From: an uncultured Opitutaceae bacterium
GTDB taxonomy: Bacteria > Verrucomicrobiota > Verrucomicrobiia > Opitutales > Opitutaceae
DNA: 64,000 nucleotides
Direction of reading: 5' to 3'
NCBI GenBank assembly: GCA_903862935.1
Contig: CAIOZY010000047.1
Coordinates: forward strand, 62,001 to 126,000
The stretch's first letter is position 1. Each line of letters opens with the position of its first letter. The notes under the pieces are model-generated. The model was not told where the DNA came from. It did not search any database and saw nothing but the letters and a program-made list of their open reading frames with translations. This document shows, piece after piece, positions 4,325 through 20,067 of this stretch. A program made the translations under genes and the position numbers.

Positions 4325-5710
4325 TCAGCCCCGGCTATCCTCCCAGCCTCCGCCGAGGGCCTTGTAGAGGGCAATCGCATCCGCCGACTCCGCCTGCCGG
4401 CTCTGCGCGAGGGCGATCTGCGAGGTGTAGAGCAGGCGCTGCGCATCCAGAACGGAAAGAAAGTCGGCCTGCCCCTCCGAATAAAGGTGTTTGGCCAGGT
4501 CGACCGCGCGCCGGTTCTGGATCACCGCCTCTGCCAGCGCCTTGCCGTGGTCCTGCTCGTTGCCCAGGGCCACAAGCGAGTCTTCGACCTCCTGCAGTGC
4601 CACAAGGACCGTCTTTCGGTAGGTCAGGTAGGATTGGTCCCGCAGGGCCTGCTGCAGCCGGACGTTTGCCAGCGTGCTGCCGCCCTGAAGAATCGGCCAA
4701 GTGACGCCTGGCCCGACCGACCAGGTCCGGTTCCCGGTCGCAAACAGCGTCCTCATCAGGCTTCCCTGATACCCGACCGCGGCCGTCAGAGGGAACTTCG
4801 GGAAGAAGTCGGATACCGCAACGCCGACCTGCGCGGTCGCGGCGTGGAGCTGGGCCTCCGCGGCGTGGATGTCAGGCCGGCGGCGCACGAGGTCGGACGG
4901 CAGTCCGACAGGAATTGCGGGCGGAGCCGGCGGAAGCACGCCGGGCTGTGAAAGCTCCCCAAGCAGCTCGTCCGGGGGCCGGCCGATGAGAACGCTCAGC
5001 GCGTGGATCGCTTGGCGCAGCGCCGTGTCCAGTGGGGAAAGGGTCGCGGCGGTTGTGGCTGCTTGGGCGTCCGCGTTCGCGGCGTCCAGGGCGCTCGAAA
5101 AACCGACCTTAAGCCTCTGGTGGACGATATCAGCGGTGTGCCTCTGGGAGGAGAGGTTCTCCCGTGCGATTGCGATCTGCTCCTGGAAGGACCTCGCCTG
5201 CACATAGTCGAACGCAACCTCCGCCACGAGCGAGACCCGGACATCATCCAGGCCTGCCTTTGCGGCCTCGGATGAGGCCTCAGCCGACTCCACACTGCGG
5301 CGGACTCCGCCGAAGAGGTCGAGTTCCCAGATCGCGTCGAGGCCGGCCTGGAAGGTGTTGGCGGAGGCCCCTCCGGATGTCGCCCCCCTCTGGGCGGATC
5401 CCGAGGCGGTGATCGCGGGCCAAAACCCGCCCGCTGCGACCCTCCGGGCTGCCCGGGCCTGGCGGAGCCGGGACTCGGCGATCTGCACGTCGAGATTGCC
5501 CTTGAGGGCGCGCTCCGCCAGCGACGTCAGCTCAGGATCGTTGAAGCCGTGCCACCACAGGGCCGTGCTTGCCGCGCCGGCGGGCGCACCCGCCCCCCAG
5601 TTCTGGGGAACGTCGGCGACCGGACTGTGGTAGCTTGGGCCGACCGCGCAGCCGCCGCACAGAAGCGCAACCGCGGCGGCGCGCAAAAAGGTTGGCCTTA
5701 GGCTACTCAT
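4325..5710 (-). CDS. Outer-membrane efflux lipoprotein (NodT/OMF family)
   Basis: Outer-membrane channel of a tripartite efflux pump, here most likely for the MacAB-type transporter encoded just upstream. The 461-residue protein starts at the ATG at 5710 with a lipoprotein signal, lipobox LLCGGC (Cys about residue 21), then AVGPSYHSP, the typical N-terminus of RND/MacAB-associated outer-membrane factors. Two long Ala-rich coiled repeats follow (around 60-230 and 260-450), with [16 protein letters not shown], a hallmark of the second OEP repeat. Its start overlaps the macB stop by 8 bases, implying translational coupling. An upstream ATG at 5773 lies inside macB and lacks a signal peptide. Substrate is unknown. 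Confidence 0.92.
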
Positions 5711-7832
5711 AGCGCAGGGCCTCGATGGGGTTGAGCCGGGATGCCTTCCATGCCGGATAGTATCCAAACACAATGCCGACCGTCGCGGAGACGGTCACCG
5801 CGGCGACGATAGCCGGCACCGACAGGAGTGTCGGCCAGCCCAAAAGAGCCGTGACCGCGATTGATGCCCCCCTCCCAACCACGATCCCAGCGACCCCCCC
5901 CGCAAGGCACAGGACAATCGCCTCGGCCAGGAACTGCCTGAGAATGTCCCGCTGGCGGGCCCCCACGGCCATCCGGGTGCCTATCTCGCGGGTCCGCTCG
6001 GTCACAGACACCAGCATGATGTTCATGATTCCGACCCCGCCGACGACGAGGGAGATCAGCGCCACGACCAGCAGGAGGTTCGTCATGACCCGGCTCGTCG
6101 AAGCCAGGGCCTGGGAGATTTCGGTGAGGTCGCGGATCCTGAAATCATCCGCCGCACCGCGCTGGATGCGATGCCTTTCTCTCATCAGGCCCGTGATCTG
6201 GGCGATGGCGTCAGGAGTGTCCTGCGCGCTCAGGGCGGAGACCCAGATGTCGTCGACGTCCGCGAATCGCGTGATCTGGAGCATGTCGGCCGCCTGGAGG
6301 GCGGACTGCTGGGGGTAGAACTGGACCTGCTGGTTGGGGTAGGACTGGCTGAGGGTATTGACCTGGCCGAGCGCCGCGGCCGCCGTCCCCGAGGTGGCCT
6401 GCCGGTCTCCGTTGATCCGGAACTTGATCGTGGTCCACGGGGCGATCATGTAGTCGTCCTGATCCCTGCCGGACATGCTCGTCCCCTTGGGGCTCAGGAC
6501 GCCGACGATCTTCATCGAGACGTTCTTCACCCTCACCTGCTTGCCCAGCGGCGGTTCGTTGCCGAAGAGCTGCCGGACCACCGTCTGTCCGATCAAGCAG
6601 ACCGGGGCGGCGCTCCGGACGTCGTCCGCGGTGAACGGCGCGCCGTCGCTCAGCTCCCACTTGCGGATCGATAGGTAGTCCGGGTTCGTCCCGAGGATAT
6701 TGTTGGGCGACCAGTTGCGGCTTCCGTAGATCACCTGGACCCGGCAGTCCAGGCTGGGGGCCACCCACCGGATGGCGCTGCATTCGCGGCGGATGGCGTC
6801 GGCGTCGTCATAGGTCACGGAGACCTGCCCTCCGCTGCCCGAGCTGACGCCGTTGATGACCGCCTCGTTGTTGTCGATCTGGATGACGTTGGCCCCGAGG
6901 CTAGCGATCGTTTGCTCAATCATGCTCGAGGAACCCCGGCCGATCTCCATCATCGCGATCACCGCGGCGATACCGATGATGATTCCCAGGCATGTCAGGA
7001 CGGACCTCATGACGTTGCGGCGCAGGGCCCGCAGGGCGGTGCGGAGGGTCCTCCAGCCCGACTTGACCGCCGGCCAGTCGATCCGGGGATGACCGGGCGG
7101 CAGCGGGGCCGGGGGCGGGGCCGGCGCCGCCGCTTTCCCCACTGCGGTCGCCCCGTCTTCAACGATGACACCGTCCTTGATTCGGATGATCCGCTTGGCG
7201 TGGTGGGCCACGTTGTCGTCGTGGGTGACGAGGATAATGGTGATCCCGGCCTCCGTATTCAGCTTTTGAAGGATCCTTAGGACGTCCTCCGTCGTGCGGG
7301 AGTCGAGATTTCCGGTGGGTTCATCCGCGAAAAGGAGCGGCGGCTGGCTGATCAGGGCGCGGGCGATGGCCACACGCTGCTGCTGGCCTCCGGACAACTG
7401 GGATGGCTCGTGATCCATCCGGTCTCCCAGTCCGACAAGCTGGAGCATCTCGGTCGCGCGGCGGCGGCATTCCTCCTCGGACGGATGGGCCGGCGAATAC
7501 GTCAGCGGGACTAGGGCGTTGTCCAGGGCGCTCGTCCGGGCTAGCAGGTTGAAATTCTGGAACACGAACCCGATTCTGGAGTTGCGAATGCGCGCTCGGT
7601 CATCGGCCGACGCCGAGGAGATCTCCCTGCCATCGAACCAGTATTGCCCCGAGGTCGGTTGGTCCAGGCAGCCAAGGATGTTCATTAGCGTGCTCTTCCC
7701 GGATCCGCTCACGCCGACCAACGCGATGAACTCCCCGCGCTCGACCCGAAGCGAGACGCCCTGCAGGACCGGAATCTCCATGTCGCCGCGGAGGTACGTC
7801 TTGCAGATCGAGTCTAGCCGGATGAGTTCCAT
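5703..7832 (-). CDS. macB: MacB-type ABC transporter, fused ATPase and permease
   Basis: Inner-membrane ATP-driven exporter of the MacB mechanotransmission class. The 709-residue protein has an N-terminal nucleotide-binding domain: Walker [10 protein letters not shown], signature LSGGQQQR, Walker [13 protein letters not shown] and the switch His in LVTHD. A linker of about 40 residues, Pro/Ala-rich, leads to one membrane helix (near residue 285), a large periplasmic domain, and three C-terminal FtsX-type helices. I chose the ATG at 7832, at the usual MELIRL start; the longer frame would run into the macA end. It lies 28 bases after macA and overlaps the outer-membrane factor gene. MacB homologues export macrolides, lipopeptides or toxins; the substrate here is not evident. 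Confidence 0.94.
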
Positions 7833-7860
7833 GGGCTGTCGCCTTGTTGTCCCGCCCGTC

Positions 7861-9147
7861 CTAGTGCCTCTGCGGGACTGGCATGAACGGGTTGGCCGCG
7901 CCACCCGACTGCGACCGGCCGATCTCGCCGGTGATGACCTCCTGGTCCTCGGCGAGGGAGGGGGCGGAGACGGCGGTGCTGACTCCGTCCGAGGCGCCGA
8001 CCGCGACGTCCACGGGGCGCGCGTAATCTCCGTCCTTCAGCCATACCGTGCCGCGGACTCCTTGGCCCGCTCCAGCGGTCGCCTCAATGGGTTTCCAGGA
8101 GCGGCTATCCGGGGAAACCTCGGCAAGGGAGGACGGAAGCCAGCGCAGTGCGGAGTTCGGCGCCAGCAGCGCCCGAGAATCCTTGCGCACCACAAAACGC
8201 ACGCTGGCTGTCAGATAGGGAAGCAGGAGTTTCTGGGGGTTCTCGGTATTCACCTCGACGGTGTACATGACCACGTTCTGCGTCATGGTGGCGTTCAGGC
8301 GCACCTTGCCGACCGTGCCCGAGAACTCCCTTCCGGGAAACGTGTCACAGGTGAATACAACCGGGGCCCCGGGCACGATGCGTCCGATGTCGGCCTCGTT
8401 CACGCCGACCCAGATCTGCATCTTGGTAAGGTCCTTGGCGATGAGGAACAGGCTTGGCGCGTTCAGGCTTGCCACCACCGTCTGTCCCGCGTTCACCCGC
8501 CGGTCGATGATGACCCCCGCCACCGGCGACTTGATAGTGCAGAAGGCCAGGTTTCGTTCCGCCTTGTCGAGGGTGGCCCTAGCCTGAACGGTGGCCGCCT
8601 TTGCCTGGGCTAGGGCCGCCTCGCCCACGGCGACATTGGCCACCGCAATGTCATAGCTGGCCTTGTATGAATCATACACAGTCCGGGCCAGAGCCTCGGA
8701 GGGGCCAAGCTCCTCCGCCCTCTTCCAGTCCGCCGACGCCTGGCTCGCCTTGGCCTTGAGCTGGGCCAAATTGGCGGCGGCGCTCAGTTCCCCGGCGAGG
8801 TCCTGCTCCACCTGGGCCCGGGAAAGAGCCAGGTCGGCCGCGTAGACCGACTCGTCAATCTTGGCGAGAACGGTTCCCTCCTCAACGGAGGATCCGTAGT
8901 CGATCATCTTCCCGCTCTTGTCCGTACCAAAGGAGCTGATCTGGCCGGCCACCTGGGCTCCGACATCGACGACCTCCTCCGGCTCTATGGTGCCGGTGGC
9001 GCTGATCGTCGTCGCGACGTCACCCCGGGTGATCCGGGCAGTCCTAAACGCCGTATCCTGTCCCGTATGGCTCCGCCACACCCAAGCGCAAATTCCTAAG
9101 GCTACGACAGCGGCAGCGATTCCAATCATCCTCTTCCGTGAAAACAT
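7861..9147 (-). CDS. macA: MacA-type periplasmic adaptor
   Basis: Membrane-fusion protein linking MacB to the outer-membrane channel. The 428 residues begin with [18 protein letters not shown], an uncleaved membrane anchor, followed by the barrel-sandwich start [20 protein letters not shown], typical of MacA. Residues about 95-175 form an Ala/Lys/Glu-rich alpha-helical hairpin, and the lipoyl half continues with [20 protein letters not shown]. First gene of the macA-macB-OMF operon, so its promoter should lie in 9148-9272. No regulator is adjacent. Confidence 0.93.
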
Positions 9148-11559: not shown

Positions 11560-12654
11560 TCAGCGGTAGGCGCCGGGAAACCGGGAATCGACCGCCCGGC
11601 GCACAGCGTCGGCCCCGCGTTCGTCTCTAAAGGTGACAAAGAGGTAGACCCCATCGGTGCCGATCGCATCCAGCAGCGGCACCACCTCATCCGGCTGGAC
11701 GTCGAGGACCTGCACCGACTTGCCGGCCTCACGGATGCGGCGGTAAAGGCCGTACCACCTCGGGTTTCCGCCGGTCTCTATCCCCGCCTGGGGGGTCCAC
11801 TCGACGGCATCCAGATCTCTGATTCCGAGCAGCGTCTCGAGATGGCCAATCGCCTGTGTGCCGTCGAGATGGTACAGGGAGTGGTCGAGCCAGGCGCACT
11901 GCTCGGTGAGCGCGGGCATGGCGAACCTGCAGTACATCTCCGGGGAGAACTGCGCGGAGGCGTCGCACTGGATCTTGGCAACCCGGCCCGGGCCCCAGAT
12001 CCGGAAGGGGCCGAAGGCTGAGCTTCCATCCTCCATCTTGATCATCTGGTAGATGCGCTCGTAGGCCTCGTGCCAGGCCCGGTTGATCTCGCGGACTTTC
12101 TCCTCGACCCATTCCGGGCGCTCGATCAGGTCGATCAGCAGGGTCTGCGCCCCGCGCAGCGAGGCGAGCACGTCCAGGTTTTCGATCAGGTCCGGGCAGC
12201 CCGCAATGTAGTTTCCCCGCGCGAGCCCCGCACAGGCGCCGACGATGCCCTCGGTCGCGCGCCACCAGGGATTGTCCGGATCGAACCGAAGGGGCGGCAG
12301 CCGCTCGGGCTCGGCCTCATTCTCCCAGCACGGGTAGTACCAGACGGTGTCCTCCGTAAAGCCAGGGATGGCACCCAGAATTAGTGCCAGCGAGCCAGGC
12401 CCTATGTTAGTCGTCGCAATCGGGAGCATATCCAGGGGAAAGACCGACCGGGACAGTTGGTAATGGGCTTGGGCGGCCCGGAATTCCGGGTCGCAATAGA
12501 ATCCCTCCAGCGTCGCGGGCCGGTTCGGGGGAGGCGCCACCCCGTGGACACATCGTCCCCCATCCAGGGCGCCGTACCGGCCAATTACAAGGCCCTCCCG
12601 GTTCCACCACCGGGTGAGGCGGCTCTTCGTTTCCTCCCAATTAGATTTCCACAT
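11560..12654 (-). CDS. URO-D-like protein (uroporphyrinogen decarboxylase fold)
   Basis: 364 residues resembling the uroporphyrinogen-decarboxylase/corrinoid-methyltransferase superfamily: MWKSNWEETKSRLTRWWNRE start, the central DLIENLDVLASLRGAQTLLIDL segment and late barrel strands with YHLDGTQAIGHLETLL and DAVEWTPQAG. Unlike the protein at 18904-20067, the HxC metal motif is replaced by HLD, so it is not a standard MtaA/MtbA enzyme, nor a haem enzyme by its N-terminus. The ATG at 12654 gives the expected length. It lies 71 bases downstream of the phytanoyl-CoA dioxygenase gene in the same direction, suggesting co-transcription under the divergent AraC regulator. Substrate unknown; a methyl transfer or decarboxylation role is inference. 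Confidence 0.78.
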   Translation of the reverse strand: MWKSNWEETKSRLTRWWNREGLVIGRYGALDGGRCVHGVAPPPNRPATLEGFYCDPEFRAAQAHYQLSRSVFPLDMLPIATTNIGPGSLALILGAIPGFTEDTVWYYPCWENEAEPERLPPLRFDPDNPWWRATEGIVGACAGLARGNYIAGCPDLIENLDVLASLRGAQTLLIDLIERPEWVEEKVREINRAWHEAYERIYQMIKMEDGSSAFGPFRIWGPGRVAKIQCDASAQFSPEMYCRFAMPALTEQCAWLDHSLYHLDGTQAIGHLETLLGIRDLDAVEWTPQAGIETGGNPRWYGLYRRIREAGKSVQVLDVQPDEVVPLLDAIGTDGVYLFVTFRDERGADAVRRAVDSRFPGAYR

Positions 12655-12725
12655 GGCTTTCCTTGGAGGCAGGGCTCTGGCGGCCCCCTCAACCCTCCGT
12701 CTTTCCCCTTGGGTTCCGCAAACCG

Positions 12726-13547
12726 TTAATTCGCCTTGGGCAGAGGACCGTAGGTTTCGGCGTTGTCCCCCGCGCGGTCATACACGGACCTGCCGCCTTT
12801 GAGAAAGGGAACCGCAAGGGTCCGGATCCGCCCGTCCGGGCGCAGAATCGGCTCGGCGCTGTACTGGGGCAAATAGATGCGCCTCATCCGGTCTGTCGTG
12901 TTCGCGCCGCTGCGGTGTAAAAGGAAGCTGTCGAAGGCGACGATACTGCCGGCCGGCACGATGAGCGGATCGCCCGGATCCTTTCCCGAATAGCCCACCA
13001 GGTCGTTCAACCCCTCCTCCTTAACGTGGTCGATGATCCGGCCGCGGGTGCCCCCTCGCGAATGTGGCAGGATGTAGACCGTGCCATTGGCCTCGTTCAC
13101 GTCGTCGAGGGTGCACCAGCACGTCAGGTACGGCCGGTGCCGGGTGGACGGGTCGCTCCACTTCACGTAGCCACTGTCCTGGTGCCAGGCGAACCGCATG
13201 CCCTGCTCGGCCCCTTTGACCACCCACTGCTCATGGAAAAGAAAGACGTCCGGGCCGAGCGCGGCCTGGGTCACCTCCGCCATCAGCGGGCTGAAGATGA
13301 ACTTCCACAGCCGGCTGCTGAGCCGGTAGCGGTTGTTGACGAAGTACCGCTTGCCCCGGTGGCTGATGCCCTCCGTCTGGACGCCCTTCGCGTCCATCAT
13401 CGAGTCGTAGTAGCCGAGGAAGTACGAGCATTCCTCGCGCAGCATCTGGAGGATGTCGGCGGGGATGACGCCCGGCAGGATCATGTAGCCCTCCTTGTGG
13501 AAGAGCTCGCGTTGGGATTCCGTTACGGTGTTCACGGCGTCGATCAT
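12726..13547 (-). CDS. Phytanoyl-CoA dioxygenase family (PhyH) Fe(II)/2-oxoglutarate enzyme
   Basis: 273 residues from the ATG at 13547. The iron-binding facial triad is visible: HQD (H122, D124) and a second His in LLHRSGANTTDRMRR (H211), with Arg about ten residues later to bind 2-oxoglutarate. The N-terminal FHKEGYMILPGVIPADIL is typical of PhyH proteins. The enzyme should hydroxylate a small molecule in the cytoplasm; substrates in this family vary widely (fatty acyl-CoA, ectoine, antibiotics, phosphonates). An ATG at 13598 would add 17 residues that overlap the promoter region of the divergent AraC gene. The genes upstream and downstream suggest an inducible catabolic unit. Confidence 0.88.
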   Translation of the reverse strand: MIDAVNTVTESQRELFHKEGYMILPGVIPADILQMLREECSYFLGYYDSMMDAKGVQTEGISHRGKRYFVNNRYRLSSRLWKFIFSPLMAEVTQAALGPDVFLFHEQWVVKGAEQGMRFAWHQDSGYVKWSDPSTRHRPYLTCWCTLDDVNEANGTVYILPHSRGGTRGRIIDHVKEEGLNDLVGYSGKDPGDPLIVPAGSIVAFDSFLLHRSGANTTDRMRRIYLPQYSAEPILRPDGRIRTLAVPFLKGGRSVYDRAGDNAETYGPLPKAN

Positions 13548-13609
13548 ACCGCCGCCCACGCGGATTCTCCTCTCGTTTTTTCGCCGTGTTTCTATCATTT
13601 CTTGTCGTC

Positions 13610-14425
13610 ATGCGACAGCGCCTCAACCTGCCTCCATCATGGGACGGAAACCTGTGGCAGTGCGGTCACCTGGGCCGGGCGCGCCCAGCCCATCGCCACG
13701 CCGAACTGGAGTTTAATCTGGTCACCCAGGGGTCTGGAACCTACCTGCTCGCGAACCGCAGATACCGGATTGGACGCGGGGACCTGCTCTGGCTCTTCCC
13801 GGGCCAAGAGCATGTCCTTGTTGGGGAGACGGCCGACTTCGAGATGTGGGTGGGGGTGTTCAGGCCGCGCATGGTTCAACGGGTCGCGACCGACTCCGGC
13901 ACGCGTGTATTGAGGCTGGCCGATCCTCCCGGTGAATACTGCCGCCGCCTGAGTCGGGACGACCTGGACCGTCTTGTTGGACTCTTCGCGGAGGTCGCGG
14001 GAACAAGGAGCTGTCTTGGCCTGTTCAACACAGGCTCGGCCTACGCCCTTCTGGCCACCTGGCGCGCCTTTGAGGGGGCCGTTGATGTTTCCGTGGGAGA
14101 CGTCCATCCGGCGGTCGAGAAGGCCGCCCGGCTCATCCGATCCGACCCCGGGGCGCTGAGACTTGTTGAACTCGCGCGGCGTTCAGGGCTGAGTCCCTCC
14201 CGCCTCAGCCGCCTGTTCAAGCGACAAACCGGGATCGCCTGGGTCGACTTCAGAAACCGGGAACGCATCAAGCGCTTCCTCAATATGTACGGGGCGGGCC
14301 AGCGCCATAACGTCCTGGAGGCTGCCTTGGAGGCGGGGTTTGGGAGCTACCCCCAGTTTCACCGTGTTTTCCGACGGGTAATGGGCTGCACTCCCGCGTT
14401 TCACAGAAAGAAAACGGGGAAATAG
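13610..14425 (+). CDS. AraC-family transcriptional regulator
   Basis: 271 residues. The N-terminal half is a cupin-like sensing domain (HRHAELEFNLVTQGSGTYLL, then GRGDLLWLFPGQEH), and the C-terminal 100 residues form two helix-turn-helix motifs: LARRSGLSPSRLSRLFKRQTG, and the second near AALEAGFGSYPQFHRVFRRVMGCTP. The ATG at 13610 is preferred over 13586 because the conserved part begins with MRQRLNLPPSW. It is divergent from the PhyH gene with 62 bases between starts, so it most likely controls the PhyH/URO-D-like genes in response to a small ligand. Ligand unknown. Confidence 0.9.
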   Translation: MRQRLNLPPSWDGNLWQCGHLGRARPAHRHAELEFNLVTQGSGTYLLANRRYRIGRGDLLWLFPGQEHVLVGETADFEMWVGVFRPRMVQRVATDSGTRVLRLADPPGEYCRRLSRDDLDRLVGLFAEVAGTRSCLGLFNTGSAYALLATWRAFEGAVDVSVGDVHPAVEKAARLIRSDPGALRLVELARRSGLSPSRLSRLFKRQTGIAWVDFRNRERIKRFLNMYGAGQRHNVLEAALEAGFGSYPQFHRVFRRVMGCTPAFHRKKTGK

Positions 14426-18903: not shown

Positions 18904-20067
18904 ATGACCGCTCAGAAGAAATATACCTCCCGGACCCGGCTTGCGGCGGCTATGCGCCTGGAAAAGCCAGACCGGGTGCCTGTCATGTGCCAGCCCTCCT
19001 GGGGTTTCGTTCTGAAACAGATCCCCGACCTAGATCCGATCGACTTCTGGCACAATCACGACGGGGCTCTGGCGCGAGGGTTTTCGGAGATCAGCCTGCG
19101 CTTCGGGTTTGACGGGGTCCTGATACCGGCGGTGGGCGCCGCGCCGCTTGACGAAAGCAAGGTGACCAAGATAGACCGCGCTCATCCCGAGGGCCCGGAA
19201 GTAACCTTCAAGAACGGGGACTCCTGCATCTACTGCAGCAACGACCTGCCTCGGTACACCCATGCCGTGGCCCCTGAGCAAGAGATCGACGCGGTCAATC
19301 CGGAACTGATTGGGGAGCGGCTGACCTATCACCCCCCCACGAACCACCTCAGGATGTATCTTGCCGAAGGGTCCGGGGGTCGGGTCGCAGAACTTACCCA
19401 GGCCAGGAAGATCATAGGTCCTGATGTATCTCTCCACGGCTCTTTGTACTCTCCCGAGGATTACCTCATCGACATGTTCGGCGTGGACGGCGCTATGGTC
19501 GCTTTGCTGACGGAGCCCGAAAAATGCAGAGTCCTGCTTGCGGCCTTCGCCCGGGCGGTGGCCGGCCATGCGCGGGAGCAGGCTGCGGCTGGCGTCGACG
19601 CCCTTAACGTATCAGCGCCGTGGGTCGGACAGACCTTCGTCTCGCCGGAGCTGCACCGAGGGCTCATCTCGCCCGCCCAGGCCATCCTGGTGCGGGTGTG
19701 CCACTCCGAAGACATTCCCTGCTACTGCCACACCTGCGGAGCGATTGGCGATCGCCTTGAGGGAATTATAGACATCGGCTTTGATGGCCTGGAGTGTCTT
19801 GACCCCCCGCCCTTGGGCAACGTGGAACTGGCCGACGCCGTGCGCCGCATCGGCCATCGAGCCTTCATCAAGGGAAACATCGACCCGGTGCACACCCTCC
19901 TACTGGGAAGCCCGGAGGCGATAAGGGAGGACGTCGCCCGACGGCTTGAGGCGGGCATGCAGGCCCGCGGATTCATCCTGAGCACGGCGTGCTCAATCGC
20001 GCCGAATACGCCGGCGGCTCATGTCGCCCTTCTGCGGGAGCTGGCAGAACGGTACGGAACCTACTGA
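18904..20067 (+). CDS. URO-D superfamily, MtaA-like methyltransferase with zinc motif
   Basis: 387 residues. The N-terminal RTRLAAAMRLEKPDRVPV is the standard opening of corrinoid-type methyltransferases in the URO-D superfamily. The metal site is visible as HTC (H276, C278) and a third ligand C363 in STACSIAPNTP. FIKGNIDPVHTLLLGSPE lies on the barrel. Known relatives (MtaA, MtbA, CmuA domain) move methyl groups between a corrinoid protein and coenzyme M or another acceptor. No corrinoid protein is encoded nearby. It ends 104 bases before the arsR start; a strong promoter at 20123-20151 lies between, so the arsenic genes can be transcribed alone. A link to arsenic or another methylated metabolite is only inferred. 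Confidence 0.82.
   Translation: MTAQKKYTSRTRLAAAMRLEKPDRVPVMCQPSWGFVLKQIPDLDPIDFWHNHDGALARGFSEISLRFGFDGVLIPAVGAAPLDESKVTKIDRAHPEGPEVTFKNGDSCIYCSNDLPRYTHAVAPEQEIDAVNPELIGERLTYHPPTNHLRMYLAEGSGGRVAELTQARKIIGPDVSLHGSLYSPEDYLIDMFGVDGAMVALLTEPEKCRVLLAAFARAVAGHAREQAAAGVDALNVSAPWVGQTFVSPELHRGLISPAQAILVRVCHSEDIPCYCHTCGAIGDRLEGIIDIGFDGLECLDPPPLGNVELADAVRRIGHRAFIKGNIDPVHTLLLGSPEAIREDVARRLEAGMQARGFILSTACSIAPNTPAAHVALLRELAERYGTY

Follow-up and report, generated by a model that had tools for sequence, protein, structure and literature searches.

The UroD superfamily contains proteins that act as the substrate half (MTI) of corrinoid-dependent dealkylation, among them CdmB, MtvB, OdmB, VdmB and MtoB. In the accessible part of their description, the CdmB-type and O-demethylase MTIs each depend on two partners, a corrinoid protein and another methyltransferase, and CdmB, a characterized methyltransferase of this superfamily, is zinc-free and zinc-independent (PMC13222342). 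Here we analyzed a 64,000-nucleotide stretch of an uncultured Opitutaceae bacterium (assembly GCA_903862935.1, contig CAIOZY010000047.1, positions 62,001 to 126,000), hereafter the window, in which the genes of a PhyH-family oxygenase and a URO-D-like protein face the gene of an AraC-family regulator. The three genes are very probably regulated as a single unit, and the two enzymes then serve the same pathway. More tentatively, we favor a reading in which a zinc-free, corrinoid-linked, dealkylase-like URO-D protein and the O2-dependent PhyH oxygenase act on one sugar-type compound under an AraC switch. Set against the MTIs as the accessible text describes them, the window protein shares the UroD fold and some of its relatives have corrinoid or methyltransferase neighbors, but the unit itself lacks a corrinoid gene, lies in sugar-related rather than aromatic- or haloalkane-related surroundings and has an oxygenase as partner.

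Other described proteins resemble one of the two enzymes. The methylcobamide methyltransferases MtaA, MtbA and CmuA (PF01208, TIGR01463) belong to the same superfamily and share the fold, but the URO-D-like protein has HLD in place of HxC and matches neither family. HemE also shares the fold (Z about 20), and differs in that the window protein has no TIGR01464 match. EvdO2 is a PhyH-type oxygenase that acts on sugars, and it gives the best PDB match of the window's PhyH; its role is biosynthetic, and the match covers residues 119-251 only. The sulfo-SDO (sulfo-ASDO) pathway with SqoD and SquF, compared by its accessible description, resembles the unit of a related genome (G060) in that an iron/2-oxoglutarate oxygenase shares a locus with a sulfoquinovosidase-type gene, but the window unit adds a URO-D-like protein and AraC. 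As a preliminary description of this DNA had stated, no named pathway of this composition was found in the open-licence literature that we searched.

Organization and conservation of the three-gene unit

The URO-D-like gene (11560-12654, minus strand) encodes 364 amino acids and belongs to what we call the HLDG clade of the UroD superfamily. It is separated by 71 bases (12655-12725) from the gene of the Fe(II)/2-oxoglutarate oxygenase PhyH (12726-13547, minus strand), which encodes 273 amino acids from the ATG at 13547. This start lies near the beginning of the relatives' alignments; the longest open reading frame (ORF) starts at 13598 and would give 290 amino acids. On the plus strand, the AraC gene occupies 13610-14425 from its ATG, with the longest ORF beginning at a GTG at 13586. 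With both inner ATGs taken as starts, AraC and PhyH are 62 bases apart, so that positions, orientation and both gaps agree with the preliminary description. In a Pfam profile search, the regulator matched HTH_18 (62.3 bits) and the cupin domain AraC_binding (43.4 bits), which places it in the AraC/XylS family.

We searched 387 genomes of the phylum and 384 of the class, two samples that overlap in part, for related genes; loci and genomes are given by L and G numbers where needed. Both samples together held 15 close PhyH genes (E 1e-110 or better), 12 of them with a divergent AraC gene alongside (exceptions L118, L122 and L123). An HLDG-type URO-D gene directly followed PhyH in five: the window, L044 (G060), L052 (G216), L138 (G402) and L139 (G418). 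The order AraC, divergent from PhyH and URO-D, is thus common to five genomes from three families, which bears out the earlier claim of a single regulated unit. PhyH and URO-D are 87 bases apart in L044 and 6 in L052, and they overlap by 4 bases in L138 and L139; these values, like all gene starts in relatives, come from a home-made gene caller and are approximate. In the other ten close PhyH loci, no HLDG-type URO-D gene comes next to PhyH (in one of them, L140, the contig ends right after PhyH), and PhyH is missing from the 4 kb around URO-D at 53 of 59 URO-D loci. The pairing of AraC with PhyH is therefore the steadier core, and that of PhyH with URO-D is less constant. Separation of the genes in relatives had been regarded beforehand as an argument against the unit; they do stand together in the five genomes, although each enzyme also occurs alone.

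L122 (3334-8088) holds in one row PhyH, a fatty-acid-desaturase-family protein, a distant HCCG-type URO-D protein one gene beyond PhyH's direct neighbor, and a GH29-fucosidase-like protein (judged by eye). The row of L123 is similar and lacks URO-D.

The two enzymes also tended to occur in the same genomes. Within the class sample, the URO-D gene (E 1e-50) was present in 7/11 genomes with PhyH at E 1e-120, a threshold chosen after the list was seen, vs 9/373 others (Fisher p 1.5e-8); with PhyH at E 1e-70, the counts were 9/19 vs 7/365 (p 2e-9). The link was weaker in the phylum sample, with URO-D in 4/9 PhyH genomes vs 30/378 (p 0.005), or 5/9 vs 70/378 (p 0.016) when the URO-D threshold was relaxed to E 1e-10. 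These p values ignore kinship, and the co-occurrences are not independent events, since four of the seven class genomes come from one family and two from another. PhyH-linked URO-D proteins were spread over three parts of the URO-D tree, an unevenly supported tree in which 30 of the 58 inner branches are starred; hence, the pair was probably assembled or reshuffled more than once.

A shared element at the divergent promoters

Direct repeats are common binding sites of AraC-family regulators. At 15 AraC-PhyH junctions, we found two similar half-sites, CTTCTCATTTT and TTATCATTTTTTGTCG, about 21-22 bases apart and beside the AraC start. The core TATC[AG] was present in all 15 junctions, and the first half-site was weak in L052, L124, L142 and L156. 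In the window, the element lies at 13571-13600 (plus strand) as TCTCGTTTT-N13-TATCATTT, within the divergent promoter, and is a likely AraC operator. A strict pattern had this site as its single match in the 3.35-Mb host assembly, while the reversed control had none. Of 14 other genomes, eight lacked this pattern and six had it once, in five cases at the junction and in one case not; a match in G564 (C10) precedes another gene and was judged to be due to chance. A relaxed pattern, derived from the junctions that it afterwards matched, gave 25 matches at 14 distinct sites in 1.55 Mb of partly repeated DNA around these genes, against one for its reverse. Thirteen of the 14 sites were at AraC junctions and the remaining one was elsewhere (L155); the window's own site fits the strict pattern only. 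One of these junctions (L074) joins AraC with URO-D, PhyH not being found there, which suggests a shared regulator. We rejected the possibility that the junction codes for an N-terminal extension of PhyH, because the differences in junction length are not multiples of three and there is no ATG at this place in L124 and L146.

The URO-D-like protein belongs to the UroD superfamily

The URO-D-like protein matched no Pfam family at E 10 and no NCBIfam model at E 1, TIGR01463 and TIGR01464 included. Against the PDB, its sequence gave a single match at chance level (1vhc, E 0.39), and a profile search likewise gave chance-level matches alone (best E 0.18). Of 50 aligned members, most came from the same phylum and a few from others, and just three reached PF01208 at E 0.01. 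Five columns were invariant (G94, D161, D231, H262 and G265), D264 was kept in 98% of the rows, and Q229, H271, G311-K312 and several tryptophans, W286 and W300 among them, were invariant or nearly so. Comparison of the 50-row profile with 12 PF01208-type proteins using hhalign gave a probability of 97.6% (E 3.6e-12) and superposed HLDG (H262-L-D264-G265) on the zinc motif HxCG. An AlphaFold model built from 8 sequences (pLDDT 91.0, pTM 0.89) was closest in Foldseek to a Methanosarcina mazei methyltransferase (4ay7, E 1.9e-8), and VIA-align placed it about equally close to 4ay7/4ay8 and to HemE rows (Z 18.9-21.1). From the profile comparison and the predicted structure, we firmly assign the protein to the UroD superfamily; its clade has no family model.

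Two identities were rejected. The protein is not a HemE paralogue, as it has no TIGR01464 match and the genome has a separate strong PF01208 protein (C53, 384 bits); nor is it a zinc thiol methyltransferase of the MtaA/CmuA type, as the HxC motif is lost. Both outcomes are in line with the preliminary description, which had noted HLD for HxC and named clustering with haem HemE as an argument against its reading. Among 16 other URO-D proteins inspected, five had HxDG, ten HxCG and one neither, so the HLD motif is not peculiar to the window gene; in L129, from the same genome, one of the HxDG proteins adjoins a corrinoid gene. A second protein of the superfamily is encoded in the window at 18904-20067. 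It is of the MtaA/CmuA type (PF01208, 110.7 bits) and keeps H276-x-C278 and a C-terminal C363.

The PhyH oxygenase has a complete iron site

PhyH matched PF05721 with 81.9 bits (cut-off 22) in the Pfam profile search and belongs to this family. Its iron site is complete, as described earlier, with H139-x-D141 and H228 followed by RSGANTTDRMRR; the arginines downstream are candidates for 2-oxoglutarate binding. The HxD motif and the HRS stretch were present in all 17 PhyH proteins examined, including the window's. The best PDB sequence match was the orthosomycin oxygenase EvdO2 (4xab, E 2.5e-11). A second group of PhyH proteins, about 54% identical to the window's and with neighbors of similar lengths, was found in L125, L126 and L127; in L126 and L127 the PhyH gene directly follows a CstA carbon-starvation gene.

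Corrinoid and carbohydrate genes around relatives

We surveyed neighbors within 4 kb each way of 63 URO-D copies at 59 loci, both sides being complete for 34 of the 63. L053 and L147 were removed as duplicates of L013 and L009, and the set includes L122 with its distant URO-D protein (56.6 bits). A corrinoid protein gene was present at 6/59 URO-D loci (L008, L045, L081, L082, L139 and L151) vs 0/18 PhyH-only loci. Homocysteine-methyltransferase-like (S-methyltransferase) genes were found at five loci, other URO-D proteins at nine and eight (two models), sulfatases at six, GH31 glycosidases at three and AraC at 11, the hidden Markov models for these counts having been built from proteins already in the set. 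L139 combines the three-gene unit with both a corrinoid and a homocysteine-methyltransferase-like gene. Seven of 20 hand-picked neighbors that we scanned were plainly carbohydrate-related (GH4, GH65, alpha-L-rhamnosidase, GH95, PfkB, a sugar symporter and ROK). Neighbors in L129 and L145 gave TonB-receptor-like and kinase-like matches and no substrate clue.

The host genome has a large corrinoid methyl-transfer repertoire. Its assembly contains 22 PF01208 matches, five B12-binding_2 matches and two DUF1638 genes; three of the B12-binding_2 proteins, with about 210-220 residues, resemble the corrinoid protein of L045 (63-72%). A RACo-type corrinoid activator, of a family found in 1 of 14 control genomes, is also encoded. 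At the host locus L132, a URO-D gene is found with an MTHFR gene and with genes resembling the FTHFS gene of L081 (74% identity) and the S-methyltransferase gene of L139 (47%).

Two sister loci raise sulfosugars as a candidate substrate

In the URO-D tree, the window protein formed a clade (support 100/98) with a paralogue from its own genome (L003, 66% identity) and the protein of the G060 unit (L044, 65%). Both sister loci contain a GH31 gene about 5-6 kb from URO-D that passes NF007746 (616 bits in L003 and 953 in L044, cut-off 553). This model (PRK10426) carries the database label alpha-glucosidase and is, we assume, that of YihQ; the closest PDB chains of the L003 enzyme are the sulfoquinovosidase-type 8r56 and 5aed. 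L003 also holds genes for an FAD oxidase, an FGGY kinase, a GlpD-like oxidoreductase, GntR and an MFS transporter that is 67% identical to the one in L044. Right beyond AraC, the L044 genes are closest to dissimilatory sulfite reductase (Dsr) alpha (E 1.3e-74) and beta (E 4.7e-85), followed by apparent DsrC, DsrM and DsrK (by eye). Since two tree sisters sit with a sulfoquinovosidase-type gene, one of them also with sulfite reductase, a sulfosugar is a serious substrate candidate. An iron/2-oxoglutarate sulfoquinovose dioxygenase is known, according to the accessible part of PMC12890257.

Neither sulfoquinovosidase, nor any of 11 further proteins encoded at L003, L044 and L052, had a match in the 64-kb window. 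In both path length and identity, the protein nearest to the window's is that of L145 (67%), which has sugar-acid surroundings, followed in path length by that of L008, beside a corrinoid gene; these two are as near as the clade sisters. The close AraC-PhyH units of L144 and L146 adjoin a GH31 gene whose best NCBIfam match is an alpha-xylosidase model, below its cut-off; in the PDB, the L146 enzyme is closest to the alpha-xylosidase MeXyl31. A suspected GH188 sulfoquinovosidase in L050 was rejected, as this GH4-family neighbor is closest to alpha-galacturonidase. In G060, a genome of the same family, L044 (1-17001) comprises a glycerol-kinase-like fragment (by eye), GH31, a TonB receptor, the MFS gene and the three-gene unit beside the Dsr genes. 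In the window's own genome, the stretch L166 (6996-14568) lies a few kb from the sulfoquinovosidase-type gene; judged by eye, it encodes a molybdopterin oxidoreductase, NrfD, a multihaem cytochrome and two proteins resembling YeeE.

Proposed mechanism and alternatives

In the mechanism that we favor, AraC at its own direct-repeat operator would turn on both enzymes, and PhyH would oxidize a carbohydrate-type small molecule with O2 and 2-oxoglutarate. The URO-D-like protein would serve, without zinc, as the MTI of a corrinoid dealkylation: it would bind a sugar derivative so that a corrinoid protein, whose gene lies elsewhere in the genome, could use its Co(I) to remove a methyl or other alkyl group, to be passed on to homocysteine or folate. 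The pair may act in succession, or it may provide one entry to the compound that depends on O2 and one that does not. Hydroxylation before cleavage or methyl transfer, as proposed earlier, is one possible order; what our results fit is two enzymes on one compound, whether in sequence or as alternatives. The most likely substrate is a sugar derivative, with a methyl ether or a sulfonate as alternatives. We prefer a zinc-free corrinoid-linked dealkylase because the thiol-binding zinc motif is lost, some relatives have corrinoid neighbors and the host has a corrinoid toolkit.

Several observations weigh against this mechanism. There is no corrinoid gene beside the window's unit, and 53 of the 59 URO-D loci have none within 4 kb. 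The fold by itself is no argument for methyl transfer, since the scores for HemE are similar, and the accessible part of PMC13222342 reports zinc in some O-demethylases of the UroD superfamily. As for the substrate, 13 of the 20 scanned neighbors were not plainly sugar genes and included TPR, Mur ligase, ThrE, sigma factor, SpoIIE and unrelated proteins, the glycosidases vary by locus and so point to no one methylated sugar, and the sister loci carry a sulfoquinovosidase-type gene, whose product has no methyl group. The similarity to HemE and the scarcity of nearby corrinoid genes would suit a corrinoid-free TIM-barrel chemistry, in which the URO-D-like protein decarboxylates, cleaves or isomerizes a sugar acid or keto-sugar, supplied by PhyH or otherwise, with H262, D264, D231 and D161 in acid-base roles. 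The invariant acidic residues and histidine are in keeping with such a reaction, as is L145, where URO-D has as neighbors an SDR gene and two genes that share 78% and 82% identity with galactarate/altronate-dehydratase and MR_MLE family genes of the window's own genome. We nevertheless consider this chemistry rather unlikely, given the recurrent corrinoid and methyltransferase neighbors and the lack of a HemE family match. Moreover, an obligate PhyH product is an unlikely URO-D substrate because URO-D genes are mostly away from PhyH.

Breakdown of sulfoquinovose or another sulfosugar is, in our view, about as doubtful. PhyH would then be an SqoD-like dioxygenase that cleaves the C-S bond, the URO-D-like protein its O2-independent partner or the next step, and sulfite the product. 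The three-row clade, the GH31 and MFS genes of its two loci, the Dsr genes of L044 and the dioxygenase of PMC12890257 all speak for this route, whereas neither sulfoquinovosidase nor the 11 accompanying proteins has a match in the window. The equally near L145 and L008, the alpha-xylosidase-like genes of L144 and L146 and the unrelated glycosidases at other URO-D loci also count against it. Dsr genes of Verrucomicrobiota are already known, and they may run oxidatively, as far as the accessible part of PMC10591310 describes them. In a combined version, which we regard as a long shot, the URO-D-like protein and a corrinoid partner would split sulfoquinovose at its C-S bond when oxygen is lacking, with sulfite expelled by Co(I) in the way that CdmB expels halide, and PhyH would do so with oxygen; in relatives such as G060, the sulfite would feed Dsr within the same cell. 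If true, this would be a B12 route for desulfonation of the main plant sulfosugar. That the genes are chance neighbors with unrelated roles is very improbable: URO-D and PhyH are indeed apart more often than together, but five three-gene units in three families, with gene overlaps in two, the co-occurrence in both the class and the phylum samples and the same type of element at PhyH and URO-D promoters alike argue otherwise.

Most of the host's 22 PF01208 proteins have no assigned use, and the unit offers a tractable handle on their roles. Gene order and a promoter element common to both tie a clade without a Pfam model to an oxygenase, and its neighborhoods link it to corrinoid proteins and glycosidases and, in places, to Dsr and a sulfoquinovosidase-type gene. 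The unit may thereby give insight into the turnover of sugars and perhaps sulfosugars.

Other genes in the window

A MacA-MacB-OEP type efflux operon is found at 4325-9147 on the minus strand. OEP and MacB were identified by Pfam, and the adaptor (7861-9147) was judged by eye.

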